Shown here piece after piece: positions 16,979 to 27,080 of a DNA stretch of 64,000 nucleotides. Below the pieces are notes generated by a model. The model was not told the DNA's origin, did not search any database, and was given only the letters and a program-made list of their open reading frames with translations. The position numbers and the translations under genes are program-made. The stretch covers positions 1 through 64,000 of the forward strand of contig SHUM01000013.1 in assembly GCA_009691245.1 (NCBI GenBank), read 5' to 3'. How positions within the stretch are numbered: the stretch's first letter is position 1; every line of letters begins with the position of its first letter. The DNA is from Acidobacteriota bacterium (GTDB lineage Bacteria > Acidobacteriota > Terriglobia > 2-12-FULL-54-10).

Positions 16979-18008
16979 CCAATCCGTCTACAAGTGACTC
17001 CTGTCCTTGCGAACCAGATTCCCAGGCAAATGCCGGAAAACTTTGCATCGTGGAGAACCCTGCTCTTCGATATAGATTCATGGCGCCGCCGTTGGCGTCG
17101 GTGGCGGTCAGGGTTACGGCCTGGAAGCCACGGGCGGCCAGCACGTCCAGCGCCCGCTGCAACAGACTGTACCCCACTCCAGCCCCCTGCTGTTCTGGGG
17201 AAACGCACAACTGGGTGATGTGCGCCACTCCCGGACTGACCACGCTGGTAAGCAACATTCCACACGGCTGGCCATCAAGATGCGCGAGGGGAGTCGCTTC
17301 TGGATCGTGCCCGCCGTCTCGATACGCCAGCAGCGACGCGGGCGGACAAAACTCCCCGCAGCCGGGATAGTGAATGATGTTGTCGAGAAAGCGTAATGCA
17401 CCAGCCTGGGTGCGGTATTGGTCGCTGACCTCGCAGTCCACGTGCCCTGCGTAGGAACGCGTAATAAGATTCGCGGAATCAAGAAATTTTCCGGCCTCCC
17501 ACTCGGAAATCACTAACCCGAAAGGCAAATGTGTGGCGGAGGCTGAGGGCACCGATGACAGCTTCAGCTTCAAAAAGCTACGTCCAAAGCAGGTGTACCC
17601 GCGCCCGGCGAACAGCGCGCGCACGGCGGGCGTATCGATGTGCAGCAACTGCGCCTCGATGCGTCGCACGCCGGGAATGGCCTCTAAAGTCTCCAGCGTG
17701 TGCGCGAGCAGAAGACTGTAGATGGCGTCATTGCGCCAGTCAGGGCAGGCAAACACATCGCCGACCAACCCCTTGCCCGCTTCGCAAACGTAGAAAGTGA
17801 AGCCCACGGCGCGACCGTTGCTCATCGCCGCGTAACCGGTCAGCGCACGCCCATCCAGGAAGCGCCGTATCATGCCGACGGTCGCCGTATAGTCCCACAG
17901 AAGGTTGTCCCGCCATGCGCGAGCCTCATCCGCCAGCAGCGACTCCATCGCTTCGGTGTGCAAATGGCGCAGATCAACTATTTCAACGGAATTTTCCATA
18001 ACAGACAT
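16965..18008 (-). CDS. Tandem GNAT acetyltransferase, last gene of the his operon
   Basis: A 347-residue protein with two GNAT-fold halves. The first has VGDVFACPDWRNDAIYSLLL around residue 80-100. The second has the acetyl-CoA loop in LCVSPEQQGAGVGYSLLQRA near residue 260 and ends with NLYRRAGFSTM. The second half has the complete Q/RxxGxG/A loop and is probably the active one. Its ATG shares one base with the hisA stop (TGATG), so translation is coupled. The substrate is unknown, and a direct role in histidine synthesis is not supported by known biochemistry. Confidence 0.8.
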   Translation of the reverse strand: MSVMENSVEIVDLRHLHTEAMESLLADEARAWRDNLLWDYTATVGMIRRFLDGRALTGYAAMSNGRAVGFTFYVCEAGKGLVGDVFACPDWRNDAIYSLLLAHTLETLEAIPGVRRIEAQLLHIDTPAVRALFAGRGYTCFGRSFLKLKLSSVPSASATHLPFGLVISEWEAGKFLDSANLITRSYAGHVDCEVSDQYRTQAGALRFLDNIIHYPGCGEFCPPASLLAYRDGGHDPEATPLAHLDGQPCGMLLTSVVSPGVAHITQLCVSPEQQGAGVGYSLLQRALDVLAARGFQAVTLTATDANGGAMNLYRRAGFSTMQSFPAFAWESGSQGQESLVDGLAIRP

Positions 18009-18694
18009 CAGGGTCGGGGAGCAACAAGTCGAAGCTTTCCGGTATAGACGGCCATGCCCACCGCGGCGTCCATACCCATCTGCTCAAGCGCATCGACCTC
18101 CTGCTGCGTGGTGATCCCCCCGGCGGCGATGATCGGTAGCCGCGTGGCCGCGCGCAGCCGGGCGAACCAGCGCAGGTTGGTGCCTTGCATCATTCCTTCT
18201 TTGTCGACATAGGTGCATAGCAGCCCGCCGCAATAGGGCTCAACCTGTGGGATTACGTCTTCCGCGCGCAACCCTGTACGCGCACGCCAGCCCCTGACAA
18301 CGATGCGGCCCCGGCTGGTATCGAGCGCCAGAACGATGCGCCGCTTCCCCGCCGCGCGGCGCACGGAGCGCAGAAACTTTTCGTTCACGCCATCCTCGCC
18401 GAAGGCCGCCGTGCCGATGATGATCTGCTGTGCGCCCAGCGCCACTAATTCGCGCACGCGCGCGACGCTTCGCACGCCCCCCCCCACACGCACCGGCCTG
18501 CGGCGGCAGAGTCGCGCCACCATCTTGTCGTTATTGCCCGTACCCAGCGCGGCATCCAGATCAATCACATTGATGACCGGGAAACCGCGAAACTTTCTGA
18601 GCATCACCATCGGGTCTACTTCGAGTTTTTTCTCACGACCGCGCACGAGCTGCACGGCCATCCCATCCATCAGATCAATGCACGGCACGATCAT
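18008..18694 (-). CDS. hisA: Phosphoribosylformimino-AICAR ribotide isomerase HisA
   Basis: A TIM barrel of about 228 residues catalysing the fourth step of histidine synthesis. The N-terminal catalytic aspartate is in IVPCIDLMDG, followed by VIDLDAALG, VRVGGGVRS and GAQQIIIGTAAF; the second catalytic aspartate is in VLALDTSRGRIVVRGW, then TYVDKEGMMQGTN and IIAAGGIT. I chose the ATG at 18694 (AAGGA 8 nt upstream) over the GTG at 18700. The protein belongs to a divergent HisA branch. It is separated from hisF by two non-his genes. Confidence 0.88.
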   Translation of the reverse strand: MIVPCIDLMDGMAVQLVRGREKKLEVDPMVMLRKFRGFPVINVIDLDAALGTGNNDKMVARLCRRRPVRVGGGVRSVARVRELVALGAQQIIIGTAAFGEDGVNEKFLRSVRRAAGKRRIVLALDTSRGRIVVRGWRARTGLRAEDVIPQVEPYCGGLLCTYVDKEGMMQGTNLRWFARLRAATRLPIIAAGGITTQQEVDALEQMGMDAAVGMAVYTGKLRLVAPRP

Positions 18695-18723
18695 AGGCAC
18701 GTTCCTTAGTGGAAATTACCGAC

Positions 18724-19389
18724 TTATTTAATGGCCCGGCCCGCGATCTGCGGCGCCACATGAGCAAGTGGCAGGCGGAAATGCTCGATCTCCACACGCG
18801 CGAATCCGGCGTCCTCAATGGCTTGCCATGTTTCGCGGTCGGGGTGGCATCCGTTGCCGATCCACATTTCGATCGGTCGCAGCCATCGCTGAACCTTGCG
18901 CAATCGTGTGCCCAGCGGGGCGGCGACATGCTCCAGAAACACAAACTGCCCGCCCGGCTTCAGCACCCGGCGTATTTCGTTTAACACCTGTTCCGGATTA
19001 GCCACCGAGCACAAAACCAGCGTGCTGACAACTGCATCCTGGCTCGCATCTTCGACGGGCAGCCTCTCCGCGTATCCATGTCGAAGATCAGCCACCACGC
19101 CCGCATCCATGATCGCGCGCGCGAGATGGCGATCCATGTGGACGTTGGGCTCGACGCCAGTCCAGATATTGTCGCGCGAGTAGTAACGCAGGTTCGGGCC
19201 TGTGCCCGGCCCTATCTCCAGTATCTTCCCGCGCAGGCCGCCGAGCAGCACGCGTTTGCGTTCCGCCGTCAACGCATCATACCTTGGCCCGGCATGCGAC
19301 ATCAGCCAGGCATGGAACCGCGCGCCCATATCGTTCCTCATTCGCGGCGCCGCTGTATTCCCATCTGGTGACGACTCAGCAGCGCTCAT
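18724..19389 (-). CDS. Class I SAM-dependent methyltransferase
   Basis: A 221-residue protein with the Rossmann SAM motif ILEIGPGTGPNLRYYS near residue 56, the acidic strand end GVEPNVHMD, and the post-motifs DAVVSTLVLCSVANPEQVL and LKPGGQFVFLEH. This is a UbiE/Methyltransf_11-type enzyme whose substrate is not evident. It lies inside the his operon between DUF2087 and hisA and is probably co-transcribed. The 75-bp space upstream is filled largely by a 17-nt tandem repeat. Confidence 0.8.
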   Translation of the reverse strand: MSAAESSPDGNTAAPRMRNDMGARFHAWLMSHAGPRYDALTAERKRVLLGGLRGKILEIGPGTGPNLRYYSRDNIWTGVEPNVHMDRHLARAIMDAGVVADLRHGYAERLPVEDASQDAVVSTLVLCSVANPEQVLNEIRRVLKPGGQFVFLEHVAAPLGTRLRKVQRWLRPIEMWIGNGCHPDRETWQAIEDAGFARVEIEHFRLPLAHVAPQIAGRAIK

Positions 19390-19413
19390 GACGCATCATT
19401 CAGATCACATCGC

Positions 19414-19464
19414 TCACTGCGTCCCTCTACTCAGTGCGTCACGTTGCTCAGTGCGTCCCGTTGC
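19414..19464. repeat. Tandem repeat, three 17-nt units
   Basis: Units TCACTGCGTCCCTCTAC, TCAGTGCGTCACGTTGC and TCAGTGCGTCCCGTTGC stand head to tail. The array ends exactly at the DUF2087 stop codon (19465-19467). Confidence 0.85.
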
Positions 19465-19887
19465 TCATGGCTGCTTATTTCGAAACGCTTCGCGCTTGGC
19501 GGCAGCCTCAAGAATGGCGTCGTTTACCACGGCGGACTGGTCGATGGCGCTGATCTCCGGGGCGAACAGCGCGGCATTCGTGTCCGCGATCAACTCATAC
19601 ATCCGGCCATCCGCCGAGCGGCTCAAATATTTCTCGTCGATCAAATTGCGACGCAGTGCGGCGTGATCCACCTGCATCGTATTTCCCACCGCACCACTCC
19701 ATGCTGTAAGCGCCGTCTTCAAGTCCATCTCGGAGTACACCCGACCCGGCTCCAGCGTCAGAGCGATGGACTTCAAGACTATCGAGCGGTCGCGCGGTTT
19801 GCGCGGCAGATCGCTCGACCGGCCCGTAGTGCAGAGTTGCGCGAGGCGCTTGCGAAATTCATCAGCGGTGATACTCTCGTCCGGCAT
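19465..19887 (-). CDS. DUF2087 domain protein
   Basis: A protein of about 140 residues with the DUF2087 pattern: LPRKPRDRSIVLKSIAL, then GRVYSEMDLKTALTAW, VDHAALRRNLIDEKYLSR and DGRMYE. Such domains often occur alone or fused to helix-turn-helix regulators and probably bind nucleic acid, but no function is proven. The chosen ATG at 19887 has GAGGAG 9 nt upstream; a TTG at 19917 is the alternative. It follows hisF by 34 bp on the same strand and so belongs to the his transcript. Confidence 0.75.
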   Translation of the reverse strand: MPDESITADEFRKRLAQLCTTGRSSDLPRKPRDRSIVLKSIALTLEPGRVYSEMDLKTALTAWSGAVGNTMQVDHAALRRNLIDEKYLSRSADGRMYELIADTNAALFAPEISAIDQSAVVNDAILEAAAKREAFRNKQP

Positions 19888-19921
19888 TGCTGAGAACTCC
19901 TCGGTAAATTGGTACAAGAAG

Positions 19922-20707
19922 CTACAATCGCACGGGAATTCCGCGCGACTTTAGATGATTTTTGAGGTCGCTGACGCGAACCTTGCCATAGTGGAAGATC
20001 GACGCGGCTAACGCAGCGTCGGCCTCACCGCGCGATAGCACGTCGGCAAAATGCTCCGCCGATCCCGCTCCGCCCGAGGCGATCACCGGAATCCTAACGG
20101 CGCGGGAAACGGCGCTCGTTAATTCGCAGTCAAAACCCGCTTCTGTGCCATCGCAATCCATGGAAGTCAGTAGAATCTCTCCAGCGCCCAACTGTTCGCC
20201 TTGAGCGGCCCACTCGATCGCCGACAACTCCACGGGCCTGCGACCTCCGTAGGTGAATACGCGCCAACCACTGGTGCTCGATTGCAGCTCCACGGGCCGC
20301 TCACACTCGCGGCGAGCGTCAATGGCTAATATCACCGCTTGCGCACCGAACTCCTCGGACAACTCGGTGATCAGCGCGGGCCGCTCCACGGCGGCAGTAT
20401 TTACCGACACTTTATCCGCGCCCGAAGTGAGAATGGCACGCGCGTCCGCTACCGACCGAATCCCGCCACCCACGGAGAGCGGAATAAAAACCTTCTGCGC
20501 GGTGCGGGCAACGGTCTCGGCAATCAACTTGCGACGCTCATGCGAGGCGGTGATGTCGAGGAAGACAACTTCATCTACGCCTTCGAGATTATAGGCCGAG
20601 GCTAATTCAGCAGGATCACCCGCGTCGCGCAGCTCAAGAAAATTGATGCCCTTCACGACGCGGCCATCCTTCACGTCCAGACACGCAATCACTCGTTTAG
20701 CCAGCAT
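19922..20707 (-). CDS. hisF: Imidazole glycerol phosphate synthase cyclase subunit HisF
   Basis: A TIM barrel of about 261 residues that uses ammonia from HisH to form imidazole glycerol phosphate and AICAR. Catalytic aspartates are in [15 protein letters not shown] and [10 protein letters not shown], and phosphate loops in [10 protein letters not shown] and [11 protein letters not shown]. The ATG at 20707 gives the standard HisF N-terminus; the frame is open to 20746, inside hisH. Start and hisH stop overlap by 11 nt, consistent with coupled synthesis of the two partner subunits. Confidence 0.95.
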
Positions 20708-21380
20708 GTAAACCTCGTGCGCTGACCGCCCCGGATAACTGCGCACACAGCGCCGCGAAATTGCTCACCACTTGCAACCCCAGGTTGCCGGACTTTTCCG
20801 GATGAAACTGTGTGCCAAATACGTTGCCTATTTCGAGCGCGGCAATGAACTCCCCGCCATAGTCGGCCACCGCCGCAGCCAATGGCCTTCCATCGGCGGC
20901 AGGAGAGGCAGCAAGTTCGCGCGGCAGGAAGTAGGAGTGCGCGAAATAGACGAAGGGCCGAGAAGCCATCCCCGCGAAAAGTCTGCTGTGCGGCGCGAGA
21001 TCTAATTGATTCCAGCCCATGTGCGGAACTTTGAACCCCGCAGGCATGTCCTCGGGAAAACGGCGAACCGAGCCGGGAAAGATCCCGAGGCCCGCGTACT
21101 CCGGGGCTTCGTCGCTGCCCTCGAACAACGCATGCATGCCCAGGCAGATTCCCAGATACGGAATCCCCGCGCGTATGCGGTCGCGCAGCACACCGATGAC
21201 CGCCATCTGATCAAGTGAGCGCATCATCTGCCCAAAGTGGCCCACCCCGGGCAACAGAATCGCCGACGCTGCGGCCACATCCTGGGCAGAATAGGTAACG
21301 CGGTGGGGAACGCTCAGAAACTTCAGCGTGTTCTCTACCGAGCGCAAGTTGCCCGCGCCGTAATCAATCACCGTAATCAT
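20697..21380 (-). CDS. hisH: Imidazole glycerol phosphate synthase glutaminase subunit HisH
   Basis: A 227-residue class I glutamine amidotransferase that feeds ammonia to HisF. The triad is visible: the nucleophile cysteine in [15 protein letters not shown], and the His-Glu pair in [26 protein letters not shown] is the typical N-terminus. The C-terminal tail after the Glu is slightly longer than usual. It lies between hisB and hisF. Confidence 0.95.
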
Positions 21381-21419: not shown

Positions 21420-22085
21420 CTAGAGCAAACCCTTGGTACTGGGCATCTCGGACTTTAGGCGCGCGTCCATGGACGCCGCCATCTTCAGCGCGCGCGCGAA
21501 GGTCTTGAAGATTGCCTCCACCGCGTGATGCGTGGAACGCGCACCGAGCAACTTCAGATGCACATTGGCTCGCGCCTGATTGGCAAAACCACCGAAAAAA
21601 TCTTCTACCAGTTCGGTTTGTAAATCGCCGACGATGCGCTGGCGAAACTTCGCGTTAAAACCCAGGTACGGTCGACCGGAGAGGTCCACGGCAGCCACAG
21701 CCAGAGCCTCGTCCAGCGGCATGATGAAGTAACCGGCGCGATTGATGCCGCGCTTGTCACCCAGGGCCTCGCGCACGCACTCTCCCAGCACAATTCCGAC
21801 ATCTTCCACGGTGTGGTGTTGGTCAATGTCCAGATCACCAGTGGCCTGCAAATCAAGATCGAAGCCGCCGTGGCGGGCAAACAGCTCCAACATGTGGTCA
21901 AAGAACCGGATGCCGGTGGAGATTTGGTAGCGTCCCTTTCCTTCAATAGTCAAATGAGCGCGGATCTGAGTTTCGGTGGTATTGCGCTCGATCATCGCGT
22001 CGCGCAGCTTACCGCTTCGCTGCTTAATGACGCGCGAACCGATGGCGGCGGATTTAGTTTTGACTGGTTTCTTTACAAGACTCAT
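21420..22085 (-). CDS. hisB: Imidazoleglycerol-phosphate dehydratase HisB
   Basis: A monofunctional dehydratase without an attached phosphatase domain. The manganese-binding histidine clusters are in [13 protein letters not shown] and [13 protein letters not shown], and [18 protein letters not shown] is diagnostic. The ATG at 22085 overlaps the stop of the preceding HAD gene (ATGA), which supports this start. It gives a basic 30-residue N-terminal extension compared with usual HisB, which would begin near the ATG at 21995 ([11 protein letters not shown]). Confidence 0.94.
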
Positions 22086-22762
22086 GGCAGGACACGCTCC
22101 AGTTCATTGATGTCGGAAATTACGGCGCGCGCGCCCTGATCGCGGAACCATTGTCCCAGTTCTTCGCTTAGTCCGTTGCCGGATTTCACGACACCGATGA
22201 ACGGAACCTCGGCGGCCTGCGCGGCGCGGAAGTCATCCATCACGTCGCCGATATAGAAAACCTCGGCGGGCGAGACTTCCTTCATGATCTTGAAGATGCC
22301 CTCCGGGTCAGGCTTCTCGCGCGACACTTCCTCCATGCCGATCAATGGCTCAAAGCGCATGGTGGGGGCAAACTTGGAGAGTGTAAACTTCGCCTCCCAG
22401 CTCTCGCGCCCCGTGAACAGGGCAAAGCGAAATTTTTCCGCGAGACGCTCCAGCAGTCCCACCCTTGGCAGCCAGCGCTCGCGCGAGATCATGCCCGAGC
22501 AGTTTTCACCAAGGTAAAACTTTTGAAAGATGGCAATCACTTCGTCGCGTTCCATGCTGCTGCCGTGCTCACGCGCGATTTCCATAGTCAGGTCCCAGTC
22601 GTTGTTGGAGTTGCCGCGATTCTTGTATCGTTGAATGTCAGCCTGCGTAATCTCCGCGCCGCAGATTTCTTTCACAGAAGTGATAATCGATGCGCGGTAG
22701 GAATTGGTCACGTCCACCAACACGCCATCCATGTCGAATATCAGCAAACGTCCGCTACTCAT
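22082..22762 (-). CDS. HAD-superfamily phosphatase in his operon, candidate histidinol-phosphatase
   Basis: A 226-residue subfamily IA HAD hydrolase. Motif I is [17 protein letters not shown], motif [16 protein letters not shown], and motif [18 protein letters not shown] followed by [15 protein letters not shown]. It is held between hisC and hisB by ATGA overlaps on both sides, so it is translationally coupled to both. No other histidinol-phosphatase (HisB N-domain, HisK/PHP or HisN) is in the window, and this HAD branch (TIGR01548-like) is known to neighbour his genes. Histidinol-phosphate hydrolysis is therefore the best guess. A generic phosphoglycolate-type activity cannot be excluded. 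Confidence 0.75.
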
Positions 22763-23868
22763 CGCGAGCCGCCTTGAGCGGAAAGTTGCCGGACTGCCCG
22801 GCGCAACGCGCGAATCAACGTGCGCGTCTGCATGAGCGTGCCCACAGTGAAGCGCACGTTGCCAGAGATTTCGTAGTCGCGGTCGCGGACCAGGATGCCA
22901 CGTTCAGCCAGCAGGTCGCGAATAGCGCGATGCTGCTCGCCAAAATCGATCAGCACGAAATTCGCGTCGCTTGATCCATAACTCAGGCCCAGCCGCTTCA
23001 GCTCATCGCAGAGCAGCTTGCGCGAGGCGAACATCTCGGCCACATATTTTTTGACATAGCCGGGATCTTTGATCGCTTCGAGCGCCGCGATCACCGCCAC
23101 GGCATTTACGCTGTAAGGCGACTGTCCCTTGCGGATCGCGGAGATATTCTCCGCTTGCGAGAACAGGCAGCCGATTCGCAGCGCGGCAAGCCCGAAGGCT
23201 TTCGAGAAAGTCCGCGAGACGAACAGGTTCGGAAACTTGCCGAGCCAGCCGATGGCGGTCTGTCCGAAAAACTCGAAGTAAGCTTCATCCACCAACACGG
23301 CGGCCTGCGGCGCGGCGCGCAGGATCGCGCGCAGTTGCTCGGAAGATGCCGAGGTGCCAGTGGGATTATTGGGATTGGCGATGAGTACAGCGCACGTACG
23401 CCGCCCGACGGGAGTCTCGAGATGCTTCACGATGGCGTGTGCCGGGAAGCTCAGGTCGGGACGAAAGTCGATCTCGTCCACAATGCCACCCATGACCTGT
23501 GCGTAAAAGCGGTACATCGCATAGCTGGGGCGCAGAATCAGCACTCGGTCGCCGGGATCAACGTAAGTATTGATTATGAGCTGAATCGCCTCGTCGGTAC
23601 CGTTGGTGAGCGCCAATTCTTCCCGCTTCACATGGAAGAAGAGCGCCAGCGCGGGAACCGCATCATCATATTCCGGATAGGCAGCCAAGTCGGCAGGCCG
23701 AAGCTTCGCTAGACGCTTCACCACATGAGGTGAACAACCCACGGTGTTCTCGTTGAAGTCGAGACGCATCTTGCCGCTGCGCCCGCTGGACGGCGGGTGA
23801 TAGGGCGTCATGCGGGCAATGGCGCGGCGGGGCTTCAACAATGAGGTGGCACTTTTCTTCACTGGCAT
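22759..23868 (-). CDS. hisC: Histidinol-phosphate aminotransferase HisC
   Basis: A 369-residue PLP aminotransferase of fold type I. Key elements are LDFNENTVGCSPHV, the NPNNPTG substrate/PLP loop, VLVDEAYFEFFG, and the cofactor lysine in SRTFSKAFGLAALRIG. An N-terminal basic extension of about 30 residues precedes the normal start, and no better ATG is evident except one near residue 20. It is 8 bp downstream of hisD and overlaps the HAD gene by 4 bp. Confidence 0.93.
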   Translation of the reverse strand: MPVKKSATSLLKPRRAIARMTPYHPPSSGRSGKMRLDFNENTVGCSPHVVKRLAKLRPADLAAYPEYDDAVPALALFFHVKREELALTNGTDEAIQLIINTYVDPGDRVLILRPSYAMYRFYAQVMGGIVDEIDFRPDLSFPAHAIVKHLETPVGRRTCAVLIANPNNPTGTSASSEQLRAILRAAPQAAVLVDEAYFEFFGQTAIGWLGKFPNLFVSRTFSKAFGLAALRIGCLFSQAENISAIRKGQSPYSVNAVAVIAALEAIKDPGYVKKYVAEMFASRKLLCDELKRLGLSYGSSDANFVLIDFGEQHRAIRDLLAERGILVRDRDYEISGNVRFTVGTLMQTRTLIRALRRAVRQLSAQGGSR

Positions 23869-23876
23869 GATGGCAA

Positions 23877-25178
23877 CTATTTCTTCCTTGTTATAGAACT
23901 TGTCTTCATACGGATTTCCACGGAGCGTGCATGCGCCTCCAACCCTTCAGAGCGGGCAATGGTGGTGATAGTCGGAGTGATGCGCGCCAGCCCGGCGCGA
24001 TCCAGTTGCTGCACAGTGACAACCTTCAGGTAGTCGAGCACAGAGAGTCCGCCGCGCAAACGCGCCATGCCGCTGGTGGGCAGCACGTGATTCGGTCCCG
24101 AAGCATAGTCGCCCGCGGCCTCCGGACTGTATGGCCCCACGAAGATGCTCCCGGCGTTCTGTATCGCGCGTAGCGGAAATCCAACGGGCACGCAGAGATG
24201 CTCGGGTGCAAAGCGATTGGCCAGCCTAATGGCTTCGTCGCGGTTCTTGATAACGATGATCGCTCCGTTGTTGCGGAGTGACTCAGTCGCGGGAGTTCCT
24301 TTCGGCAATGTCGCGAGTTGCGCTGCAAGCGCGCGAGCGATGCGCTCTGCGAGACGACGCGAATCCACCAGCACAATTGCTGCCGCATCCACATCGTGCT
24401 CGGCCTGCGCCAGCATGTCGGCTGCGATGAATTCAGAATTCGCCTCACGGCCCTCTGCGATGATCAATACCTCAGTGGGTCCGGCGACAAAGTCAATCGA
24501 CACGTCGCGCGAGACGAGCCGCTTGGCGGCAGCCACGTAGGCGTTTCCGGGACCAACAATCTTGGCGACTCGGGCGATGGTCTTCGTTCCATACGCCAGA
24601 GCCGCGATGGCTTGCGCCCCGCCCACGGTATAGAGTTCGGTGATGCCGAGCTCATGGGCAACGGCGAGAATCTCCGGCACCAGCTTCGGCGTGCAGACTA
24701 CAATGCGTGGCACGCCGGCCACTTGCGCCGGGATGGCCGTCATCAGCAGAGTGGACGGCAGTGGGTAGCGGCCTGCGGGAATGTAGCAGCCGACGCTGTC
24801 GAGCGGGCGGATGAGCTGTCCGGCGCGAATGCCCGGAGCGAGTTGCTTGCGCCACTCGCGCGGCATCTGCAGGCGGGCGAACGTTCGGATGTTGCGCGCC
24901 GCTTGCGTTACAGCGCGGCGGAAAGCGGGCGAGACCTCGCGCGCGGCGGCAGCGATGTCATCGGCGGATACGGCAAAGCCAGCAGCGGTCTTGCCCGCAT
25001 AGCGATCCCACTGACGCGCGTAGCGCACCAACGCGGCGTCGCCAGCGCGATGGACGGCCTCGATCACCGGCTGCACCGTGCGCTCGGCATCCTCGAGGCG
25101 CACGGCGCGCCGCGCGAAGACGCGGTTGACGGCGCGGGTGTCGCTGCTATCGATGATGCGGATCAGGGGTTGGGGCAT
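23877..25178 (-). CDS. hisD: Histidinol dehydrogenase HisD
   Basis: A 433-residue NAD-dependent enzyme oxidising histidinol to histidine in two steps. Visible are PRIVVCTPK, VGPGNAYVAAAKRLV, DFVAGPTEVLIIAEG, the zinc-ligand region LAQAEHDVDAAAI, FAPEHLCV with the catalytic Glu-His pair, and GPNHVLPTSG near the C-terminus. Length and motif order match the family. It is separated from hisG by 109 bp containing a 10-bp hairpin and repeat C2. Confidence 0.95.
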   Translation of the reverse strand: MPQPLIRIIDSSDTRAVNRVFARRAVRLEDAERTVQPVIEAVHRAGDAALVRYARQWDRYAGKTAAGFAVSADDIAAAAREVSPAFRRAVTQAARNIRTFARLQMPREWRKQLAPGIRAGQLIRPLDSVGCYIPAGRYPLPSTLLMTAIPAQVAGVPRIVVCTPKLVPEILAVAHELGITELYTVGGAQAIAALAYGTKTIARVAKIVGPGNAYVAAAKRLVSRDVSIDFVAGPTEVLIIAEGREANSEFIAADMLAQAEHDVDAAAIVLVDSRRLAERIARALAAQLATLPKGTPATESLRNNGAIIVIKNRDEAIRLANRFAPEHLCVPVGFPLRAIQNAGSIFVGPYSPEAAGDYASGPNHVLPTSGMARLRGGLSVLDYLKVVTVQQLDRAGLARITPTITTIARSEGLEAHARSVEIRMKTSSITRKK

Positions 25179-25287: not shown

Positions 25288-26160
25288 CTACATCACGATC
25301 TTGTTCAGTGGGTACTCGACGATTCCTTGCGCGCCAGCGCCCTTCAGGCGCGGGATGATGACGCGCACCAGCTTTTCTTCGAGAATGGTGTTCACCGCGA
25401 TCCAGCCGGTTTCGCTGAGCTGCGAGATAGTCGGTTGTTTCAGCGCGGGCAGCACGGCAAGTACGGCCTTGAGATTATCTTGATGCACGTTCAGCATCAG
25501 GCCCACGCGCCCGTGCGCCAGCATCGCACCTTCCAGCAACATCTTGATGTTGGCGAGTTTCTCCTGCTTCCAAGCGTCCTGCCATGATTGCTTATTGGCG
25601 ATCAACACGGTGTTCGACTCGAGCACCGTGTCGACAATTTTCAGCTTGTTGGCGCGCAACGACGAGCCGGTCTCGGTTACCTCCACGATGGCATCGGCCA
25701 GCAGCGGCGGCTTCACTTCGGTCGCGCCCCAGGAAAATTCCACTTTCGCGGTTACGCCGTGGCGGGCCAGATATTTCTCTGTGGCCTTCACCAACTCGGT
25801 GGCCACGATCTTGCCTTGCAGGTCCTTCGGACCTTGGATGTTGGAACTCTCGGGCACGGCCAGCACCCAGCGCACTTTGCCGAAGCTGGCCTTCGAGTAA
25901 ACCAGATTTGTTACTACGACGATGTCGGCATCATTTTCGATGACCCAGTCGTGGCCGGTGAGACCCGCATCGAGCACGCCGTCTTCCACATAGCGCGCCA
26001 TCTCCTGCGCGCGGATCAGCACGCACTCGATCTCGTCGTCGTCGATATTCGGATAGTAGGAACGGGAGCCCACGGTGATCTTGAAACCGGCGCGAGCGAA
26101 CAACTCGATGGTGGCGTCCTGCAAACTTCCCTTGGGGATACCCAGCTTGAGCTTGCTCAT
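25288..26160 (-). CDS. hisG: ATP phosphoribosyltransferase HisG (long form)
   Basis: A 290-residue HisG_L enzyme that starts histidine synthesis and is normally feedback inhibited by histidine through its C-terminal ACT-like domain. The N-terminus [22 protein letters not shown] and [12 protein letters not shown], plus [17 protein letters not shown] (PRPP loop), are clear. The last 75 residues form the regulatory domain, so no HisZ is needed. The start is the base immediately after the hisI stop, indicating tight coupling. Confidence 0.95.
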
Positions 26161-26577
26161 TTACTTGGCCTCCTTGGCCAGTGCGGCGGGTTTCGGCGCA
26201 TAGTACGCCTTAGGATCATAGGACCGCGGCTCAACCTCTACCAGCTTGCCGTCTTCCACGCGTCGAAAAAAACAGGAGTAGTAGCCTTCATGGCAGGTGC
26301 CTGGGCCGAGCTGGTCGGCGACGCAGAGGATCGTGTCGAGGTCGCAATCGACAAGCACCTCACGGACCTTCAGCACATGCCCGGAGGTTTCCCCCTTCAT
26401 CCACAGCTTGTTCTGGGAGCGGCTGAAGAAGGTTACGTTACCCGAGGCGAGGGTCTTGTCGAACGCCTCCTGGTTCATGTAGCCAAGCATGAGCACCTTA
26501 CCCGTGCCGGTCTCCTGCACCACGGCGGGGATCATGCCGCCGCTTTTCTTGAAATCCAGTTGGAACTCTGTGCTCAT
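26161..26577 (-). CDS. hisI: Phosphoribosyl-AMP cyclohydrolase HisI, first structural gene of the operon
   Basis: A 138-residue monofunctional cyclohydrolase (third step). Visible are VLMLGYMNQEAFDKTL, TFFSRSQNKLWMKGETSGH, the metal site VDCDLDTILCVADQLGPGTCH, and GYYSCFFRR. The phosphoribosyl-ATP pyrophosphatase domain (HisE) that is often fused is absent, and no separate hisE lies in the window. The start ATG is about 150 nt downstream of the his leader peptide and attenuator, so expression is probably controlled by attenuation. Confidence 0.95.
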   Translation of the reverse strand: MSTEFQLDFKKSGGMIPAVVQETGTGKVLMLGYMNQEAFDKTLASGNVTFFSRSQNKLWMKGETSGHVLKVREVLVDCDLDTILCVADQLGPGTCHEGYYSCFFRRVEDGKLVEVEPRSYDPKAYYAPKPAALAKEAK

Positions 26578-26649: not shown

Positions 26650-26680
26650 AAAAAAACCCGCCAGTTGGGAAGCTAGCGGG
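26650..26680 (-). terminator. his attenuator (intrinsic terminator in the leader)
   Basis: Read on the minus strand: CCCGCTAG, an 8-nt loop, CTGGCGGG, then seven T. The 8-bp stem has one G-T pair. It starts 47 nt after the stop codon of the His-rich leader peptide and ends about 70 nt before hisI, the standard place for an attenuator. Confidence 0.85.
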
Positions 26681-26727
26681 CCGCTTGGTACCGAGATAAA
26701 TTCTATGCGCTGGCTGAAACGGCTCCG

Positions 26728-26796
26728 CTATGTCACACAATGGTGTGCGTGGTGGTGGACGTGCCCAGAGTCGTATTGAATCCGTTGTATAACCAT
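26728..26796 (-). CDS. hisL: his operon leader peptide (six histidines)
   Basis: A 22-residue ORF, ATG to TAG, that encodes MVIQRIQYDSG followed by HVHHHAHHCVT: six histidines within eight residues (positions 12-19). It lies between a consensus promoter and an intrinsic terminator directly ahead of hisI, so it is a classical attenuation leader. Scarcity of charged tRNA-His would stall the ribosome on these codons and should prevent the terminator from forming. It has no Shine-Dalgarno; the predicted transcription start is at or just before the ATG, so it would be read as a leaderless message. Confidence 0.88.
   Translation of the reverse strand: MVIQRIQYDSGHVHHHAHHCVT
26734..26747 (-). promoter_or_regulatory. 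Small hairpin over the His codons (candidate pause stem)
   Basis: On the minus strand CACAC, CATT and GTGTG form a 5-bp stem that covers the last His codons and the Cys-Val codons of the leader peptide. It would be opened or blocked by a ribosome stalled there. The competing antiterminator was not worked out. Confidence 0.45.
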
Positions 26797-26804
26797 GAAT
26801 TTAC

Positions 26805-26833
26805 AAAATATCGCACCCGGAGCATTCTGTCAA
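26805..26833 (-). promoter_or_regulatory. his operon promoter
   Basis: Consensus TTGACA (26833-26828), a 17-nt spacer and TATTTT (26810-26805). The -10 box ends 8 nt before the leader peptide ATG. Confidence 0.75.
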
Positions 26834-26897: not shown

Positions 26898-27080
26898 ATG
26901 GGGGGACTCGACTTGAAGGAGACTTTGTTGAGCATTGCCTTGATGGTGGGAATCCTTGGCGCGAGCTGGTTCTTCACGGAATGGTTTACGCGCAAGATGT
27001 ATTATCGCTGCCGCAACTGCATCACCATTAACGCCAAGCGCCGCTCGCACTGCCGCAAATGCGGCCATCCCCTGCCGTAA
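26898..27080 (+). CDS. Small membrane protein with C-terminal zinc ribbon
   Basis: A 60-residue protein with one membrane helix (about residues 8-28, LLSIALMVGILGASWFF), then RKMYYRCRNC and a second knuckle CRKCG, giving four cysteines in a zinc-ribbon arrangement on the cytoplasmic side. AAGGA lies 8 nt before the ATG. It is divergent from the his operon and 38 bp upstream of argS, so probably co-transcribed with it. Function unknown. Confidence 0.65.
   Translation: MGGLDLKETLLSIALMVGILGASWFFTEWFTRKMYYRCRNCITINAKRRSHCRKCGHPLP

Follow-up and report, generated by a model that had tools for sequence, protein, structure and literature searches.

The his operon of an acidobacterial genome is preceded by a short element that we read, with a probability of about 90%, as a ribosome-mediated transcription attenuator with a leaderless leader peptide. 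The window, by which we mean the whole stretch of 64,000 nucleotides analysed, represents nearly the whole of a contig of 64021 bp from a genome of 3.43 Mb belonging to class Terriglobia of Acidobacteriota, and the closest named relatives of this source genome are Bryobacterales and Terriglobia, in agreement with the acidobacterial origin held probable in an earlier reading of the letters alone (hereafter, the sequence-only reading). Every predicted attenuator feature that can be tested on a sequence is present, the one exception being a weak protecting 1:2 hairpin in the source genome (for coordinates see Table 1), and the sequence-only reading, which had proposed ribosome-mediated his attenuation, is supported at this level.

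Table 1. Features of the putative his attenuator and of the downstream his operon in the window
Feature	Position	Strand	Basis or remark
-35 box TTGACA	26828..26833	-	sequence; matching site filled in 48/49 leaders
-10 box TATTTT	26805..26810	-	box end 8 nt 5' of leader ATG; spacer to -35 of 17
Predicted transcription start	26796..26798	-	7-9 nt past -10 box; at, or 1-2 nt before, A of leader ATG
Leader peptide ORF, hisL-like, MVIQRIQYDSGHVHHHAHHCVT	26728..26796	-	22 codons; stop TAG 26730-26728
Segment 1 (AACGGATTC)	26778..26786	-	pairs with segment 2; supported across genomes, not individually in window
Regulatory His codons (CAC GTC CAC CAC CAC GCA CAC CAT)	26740..26763	-	6 His in 8; His cluster kept in relatives
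Small local hairpin CACAC-N4-GTGTG over last His codons	26734..26747	-	sequence; fold
Segment 2 (TAGCGGaGCCG, stop codon included), antiterminator 5' half	26720..26730	-	duplex with segment 3
Segment 3 (CGGCCCGCTA)	26674..26683	-	common to antiterminator (2:3) and terminator (3:4)
Intrinsic terminator	26650..26682	-	stem 26682-26673/26664-26655; T7 tract 26656-26650
hisI, phosphoribosyl-AMP cyclohydrolase, first operon gene	26161..26577	-	NF000768 above cut-off
hisG	25288..26160	-	TIGR00070/TIGR03455
hisD	23877..25178	-	TIGR00069
hisC	22759..23868	-	TIGR01141
HAD-family phosphatase, candidate histidinol-phosphate phosphatase	22082..22762	-	role inferred from position
hisB, imidazoleglycerol-phosphate dehydratase	21420..22085	-	profile match
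hisH	20697..21380	-	TIGR01855
hisF	19922..20746	-	TIGR00735
hisA	18008..18700	-	PF00977; best NCBIfam TIGR00007, below its cut-off

Leader ORF and competing RNA pairings in the window

The promoter-like sequence TTGACA-N17-TATTTT, noted by the sequence-only reading on the minus strand, is present at its place and is followed by the 22-residue ORF with six His in eight residues, which turned out to be the sole site within 64 kb that carries at least six His codons in eight. The transcription start is predicted from this promoter geometry, which is conserved across genomes. The element was described as lying in 184 bp ahead of hisI; it does span 184 bp, and the start of hisI lies a further 73 nt on, at 26577. 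Its position at the head of at least nine his-related genes was borne out, since nine were found (hisI, G, D, C, a HAD phosphatase-like gene, B, H, F and A). Between hisF and hisA, one gene for a DUF2087 protein and another for a SAM methyltransferase are inserted (window 18724-19917, minus strand). No clear candidate for phosphoribosyl-ATP pyrophosphatase (hisE, PRA-PH) came up: none was seen among the operon genes, and the genome as a whole gave a single, weak PF01503 match (22.4 bits, C47:21838-22023). A divergent small ORF (MGGLDLKETLL...CRKCGHPLP; window about 26900-27080, plus strand), with a hydrophobic segment and a zinc-ribbon-like tail, occupies the same intergenic region as the his promoter.

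The stem-loop of the intrinsic terminator, GGCCCGCTAG-cttcccaa-CTGGCGGGTT (26682-26655), has an energy of -15.2 kcal/mol and, if G-U is counted, 10 pairs instead of the 8-bp stem first described; its T7 tract is as reported. The hairpin said to lie over the His codons exists as a small local one, and covers only the last two of them (CACAC/GTGTG, 26747-26734). Folding for mutually exclusive antiterminator and terminator, which the sequence-only reading had suggested as a check, gave the expected alternation: with a ribosome stalled on the His codons (masked fold, full length) the antiterminator is present and the terminator absent, and with the ribosome masked at the stop codon the complete terminator appears in the best fold. 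The partial transcript free of ribosome favours the antiterminator. The 2:3 duplex of the window amounts to -17.9 kcal/mol (p=0.005 against shuffles), and the location of the stop codon inside segment 2 fits ribosome release at the stop. The energy z-score of the whole leader (-0.57) is uninformative, as expected of a switch.

The two pairings were then compared, genome by genome (48 genomes), with dinucleotide shuffles of the same leaders, since the positions of segments 1 and 2 vary from leader to leader; for the same reason, RNAalifold on the 48-leader alignment recovered the terminator alone and missed the other pairings. The mean energy of the 2:3 duplex was -17.4 against -12.6 kcal/mol after shuffling (Fisher p=1.6e-22, kinship ignored). 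Pairing of the 5' part of the ORF with the stretch that follows the His codons is likewise backed across genomes, with a mean 1:2 duplex of -23.0 against -17.3 shuffled (Fisher p=5e-23 over 48 genomes, kinship ignored), whereas in the window by itself it does not exceed the shuffles (p=0.52). As a control for codon and base composition, partners were swapped between genomes, and the cognate partners were found to pair better both for 1:2 (Wilcoxon p=2e-8 and 7e-4) and for 2:3 (p=3e-4 and 4e-5), again with kinship ignored. In ribosome-masked folds, the antiterminator formed in 48/48 stalled cases before the 3' arm of the terminator was made; with the ribosome at the stop, segment 3 was still paired upstream in 14/48 leaders under the fold model.

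Conservation in Terriglobia and the start of the leader peptide

A search for HisI covered 61 genomes of the class; the upstream DNA was read in 49, of which 39 carry a His-clustered short ORF before hisI. When only those genomes with hisI not located behind hisF are counted, the His-rich short ORF is present in 39/40, and the search upstream of hisI in relatives, proposed by the sequence-only reading, also gave terminators in 49/49 leaders. Nine loci without the leader (L042-L050; families f3, f7 and f8) have hisI or hisIE behind other sequence, mostly hisF-like coding, and one more (L016) has a cut contig with hisI behind another gene. A separate collection of named Terriglobia gave ten more leaders, and an eleventh that has fewer His codons (L062); the loci L056 and L063, named Terriglobia or Bryobacterales, carry no leader. 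The terminator lies 18-49 nt past the leader stop, in 48/49 by the automatic scan and in the 49th by eye. In the Bryobacterales-type leaders L008, L009, L055, L057 and L058, a run of GAAAGGAC is conserved directly 5' of the terminator stem.

Comparison with a genome of the same genus indicated an identity of 97% for the promoter, 99% for the ORF (68/69 bases), 93% for the spacer between ORF and segment 3, and 100% for the terminator (35/35 bases), dropping to 47% for the spacer between terminator and hisI and 76% for hisI itself. Since the identity is higher in the regulatory DNA than in hisI, the regulatory DNA is under stronger constraint than the enzyme. Conservation of the peptide is confined to the His run, and the codons at its 3' end track RNA segment 2.

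The ORFs were selected on their His content and not on promoter, terminator or pairing, so that these three features are independent of the selection. In 44/49 leaders a TANNNT sequence has its end 7-12 nt 5' of the start codon, while controls shifted upstream gave 0-5; the commonest gap is 8 nt (19 leaders, and the window as well), followed by 9 nt (11 leaders). TTGACA or TTGAC at the matching distance, or an extended -10 (TGn), accompanies it in 48/49 leaders, and in the remaining one (L008), whose start was misplaced for this tally, TGCTATACT stands 8 nt 5' of the ATG. An SD-like 4-mer precedes 3/49 leaders, against 28/48 hisI starts. Transcription starts are known for their initiator base preference, and a pyrimidine is found at -1 in 38/49 leaders and at -2 in 38/49, the pattern to be expected of transcripts that begin with the A of ATG. 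Given the close -10 box and the near-absence of SD sequences, the mRNA from which the leader peptide is translated is probably leaderless, a feature missed by the sequence-only reading. The average proportion of leaderless genes predicted in three Acidobacteria is 13.3% (PMC3160421). The full range of the gap between -10 and ATG is 7 to 16 nt, and with gaps up to 16 nt some leaders may have a 5' UTR of several nt.

Proposed switch and alternative readings

On this basis, RNA polymerase would start at 26798-26796, leaving the RNA 5' end at the AUG or not more than 2 nt from it, and we infer that the ribosome loads at this 5' end without a Shine-Dalgarno sequence. With ample His-tRNA, the ribosome would reach the stop codon inside segment 2 and cover that segment, the 3:4 pairing would form, and transcription would end at the T7 tract near 26650. 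With scarce His-tRNA, it would stall in the His run (26763-26740), 5' of segment 2, and the 2:3 pairing would then block the terminator so that the polymerase continues into hisI-G-D-C-(HAD)-B-H-F-A.

The same attenuator might operate with a leader that is not leaderless, either because transcription starts further upstream or because a usable 5' UTR carries a weak or SD-independent ribosome site. Gaps of 11-16 nt, which would leave a 5' UTR of about 4-9 nt in some leaders, and an AAGGAG ahead of the ATG in L029 speak for this arrangement, which we nevertheless regard as quite unlikely: the close TANNNT with its matching -35 or extended -10, and the scarcity of SD-like 4-mers, hold for the leaders at large (44/49 and all but three of 49, respectively), and no second promoter is conserved further upstream.

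Explanations that dispense with attenuation fare worse against the same data. His-rich peptides can bind metals, and the His content of the leader ORF would also suit an unrelated micropeptide, for instance a metal-binding one, next to a constitutive terminator. Against this stand the lack of conservation outside the His run, the 3' codons that track segment 2, the antiterminator pairing, the preference for cognate partners and the constant place before his genes, and we take it to be very improbable. Control by a T-box or a small-molecule riboswitch, with the His ORF incidental, has a precedent: T-box regulation of his genes occurs in Firmicutes and in some Actinobacteria (PMC9413887). This explanation is hardly credible here, for the His codons are the constant feature, the element measures only about 150 nt from start to terminator and is filled by the ORF and hairpins, in the window no Rfam family reached its gathering score, and the leader yielded no T-box at E up to 10. 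The Rfam scans (window, and leader with E up to 10) returned a weak terminator-like sX5 (19 bits) and one chance match. The ribosome-mediated attenuator with a leaderless leader peptide is thus the reading that we retain.

Distribution and comparison with known systems

A covariance model (R1) built on the Terriglobia leaders matches 41/43 listed genomes of the Terriglobia family f9 and, at E<=0.01 with strict filters, 83/396 genomes of the phylum, including a few chance or non-his matches. Outside the class R1 performs poorly, and direct reading of upstream regions was used in its place; leaders were found before hisI in families f32, f54, f41, f23, f52 and f66 outside the class, and, in other classes of the phylum, before hisG in f13 and f75 and before hisZ in f29. 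No leader was seen at hisI in those upstream regions, read in other classes, where hisI is placed behind hisF or fused. Beyond the phylum, three Acidimicrobiia genomes, one of them named Ferrithrix thermotolerans, have leaders before hisI (L280), hisD (L282) and hisG (L285), each composed of a His-rich short ORF starting with GTG or ATG 6-10 nt past the -10 box and a terminator. An Armatimonadetes MAG (L066) carries before hisI a GTG-started His-rich ORF (GTG AGA AAC TTC TCC CAT CGC CAT CTG CAT CAC ...) with a strong terminator behind it, possibly another leaderless leader. One may speculate, as a tentative and on balance doubtful extension, that there is a class of leaderless his attenuators across Acidobacteriota, with isolated members in genomes named Actinomycetota (Acidimicrobiia) or Armatimonadota, in which the first ribosome would have to load directly at the RNA 5' end, so that the switch would read the capacity for leaderless initiation in addition to His-tRNA charging.

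A second attenuator-like element was noticed in the source genome before hisS-aspS (G000:C1:109382-109555; L161, L183). It consists of TTGACA, a -10 box, an ATG about 10 nt on, the leader MSMNRHNHANEDANRNASLRCRSC with five Asn and two His, and a terminator with T6; it was not found upstream of hisS in relatives of the family.

The combination of a leaderless leader with a his attenuator in Acidobacteriota appears to be undescribed in the open literature: no his attenuator of Acidobacteria was found described in open full-text publications. If functional, the leaderless his leader, which occurs in many genera and is absent from Rfam, would offer a natural system for the start of transcription-translation coupling on mRNA without 5' UTR, and a simple regulatory annotation of histidine genes in a major soil phylum.

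The enterobacterial layout invoked by the sequence-only reading applies in part. A His-rich leader and a competing antiterminator and intrinsic terminator before his biosynthesis genes are common to the window and enterobacterial hisL (RF00514), but the RF00514 His_leader model, which scores 131.1 bits on the E. coli control, matched neither the window nor any of six Acidobacteriota loci. The leader in the window lacks a Shine-Dalgarno sequence, has its start codon at the predicted transcription start, 8 nt past the -10 box against about 38 nt past a -10-like box for E. coli hisL (by sequence), and follows a simpler three-hairpin scheme of the trp type; the first gene of the operon is hisI, in contrast to hisG in the enterobacterial his operon. 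The trp attenuator of E. coli has the hairpin order 1:2, 2:3 and 3:4 with the stop codon near segment 2. The window shares this segment order and stop position, and differs from the trp type in having the His codons between segments 1 and 2 and a leaderless start.

The sequence-only reading regarded attenuators of this kind as mainly proteobacterial, which is too narrow: known or predicted his attenuators extend over Proteobacteria and Firmicutes, and among the latter his leaders have been predicted for the Bacillus cereus group, for Peptostreptococcaceae and for Erysipelotrichales (PMC9413887). These Firmicutes attenuators likewise combine a His leader, a terminator and an antiterminator and lack a match to RF00514, yet belong to narrow lineages of another phylum, and no leaderless geometry is reported in the passages of that paper that were consulted. 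Non-his amino-acid leaders occur in Actinobacteria (PMC1262725, PMC8079986), and those of Streptomyces and Corynebacterium (PMC8079986, PMC5784534) likewise involve leaderless transcripts of amino-acid genes; they concern Leu, Trp, Ilv and others but not his, and several are without a clear intrinsic terminator. The trpL of Sinorhizobium meliloti (rnTrpL, PMC10117765) likewise has an RNA starting at the leader AUG; it responds to another amino acid, Trp, in an alphaproteobacterium, and its leaderless start has been shown by experiment, whereas that of the Acidobacteriota leader is predicted from sequence.
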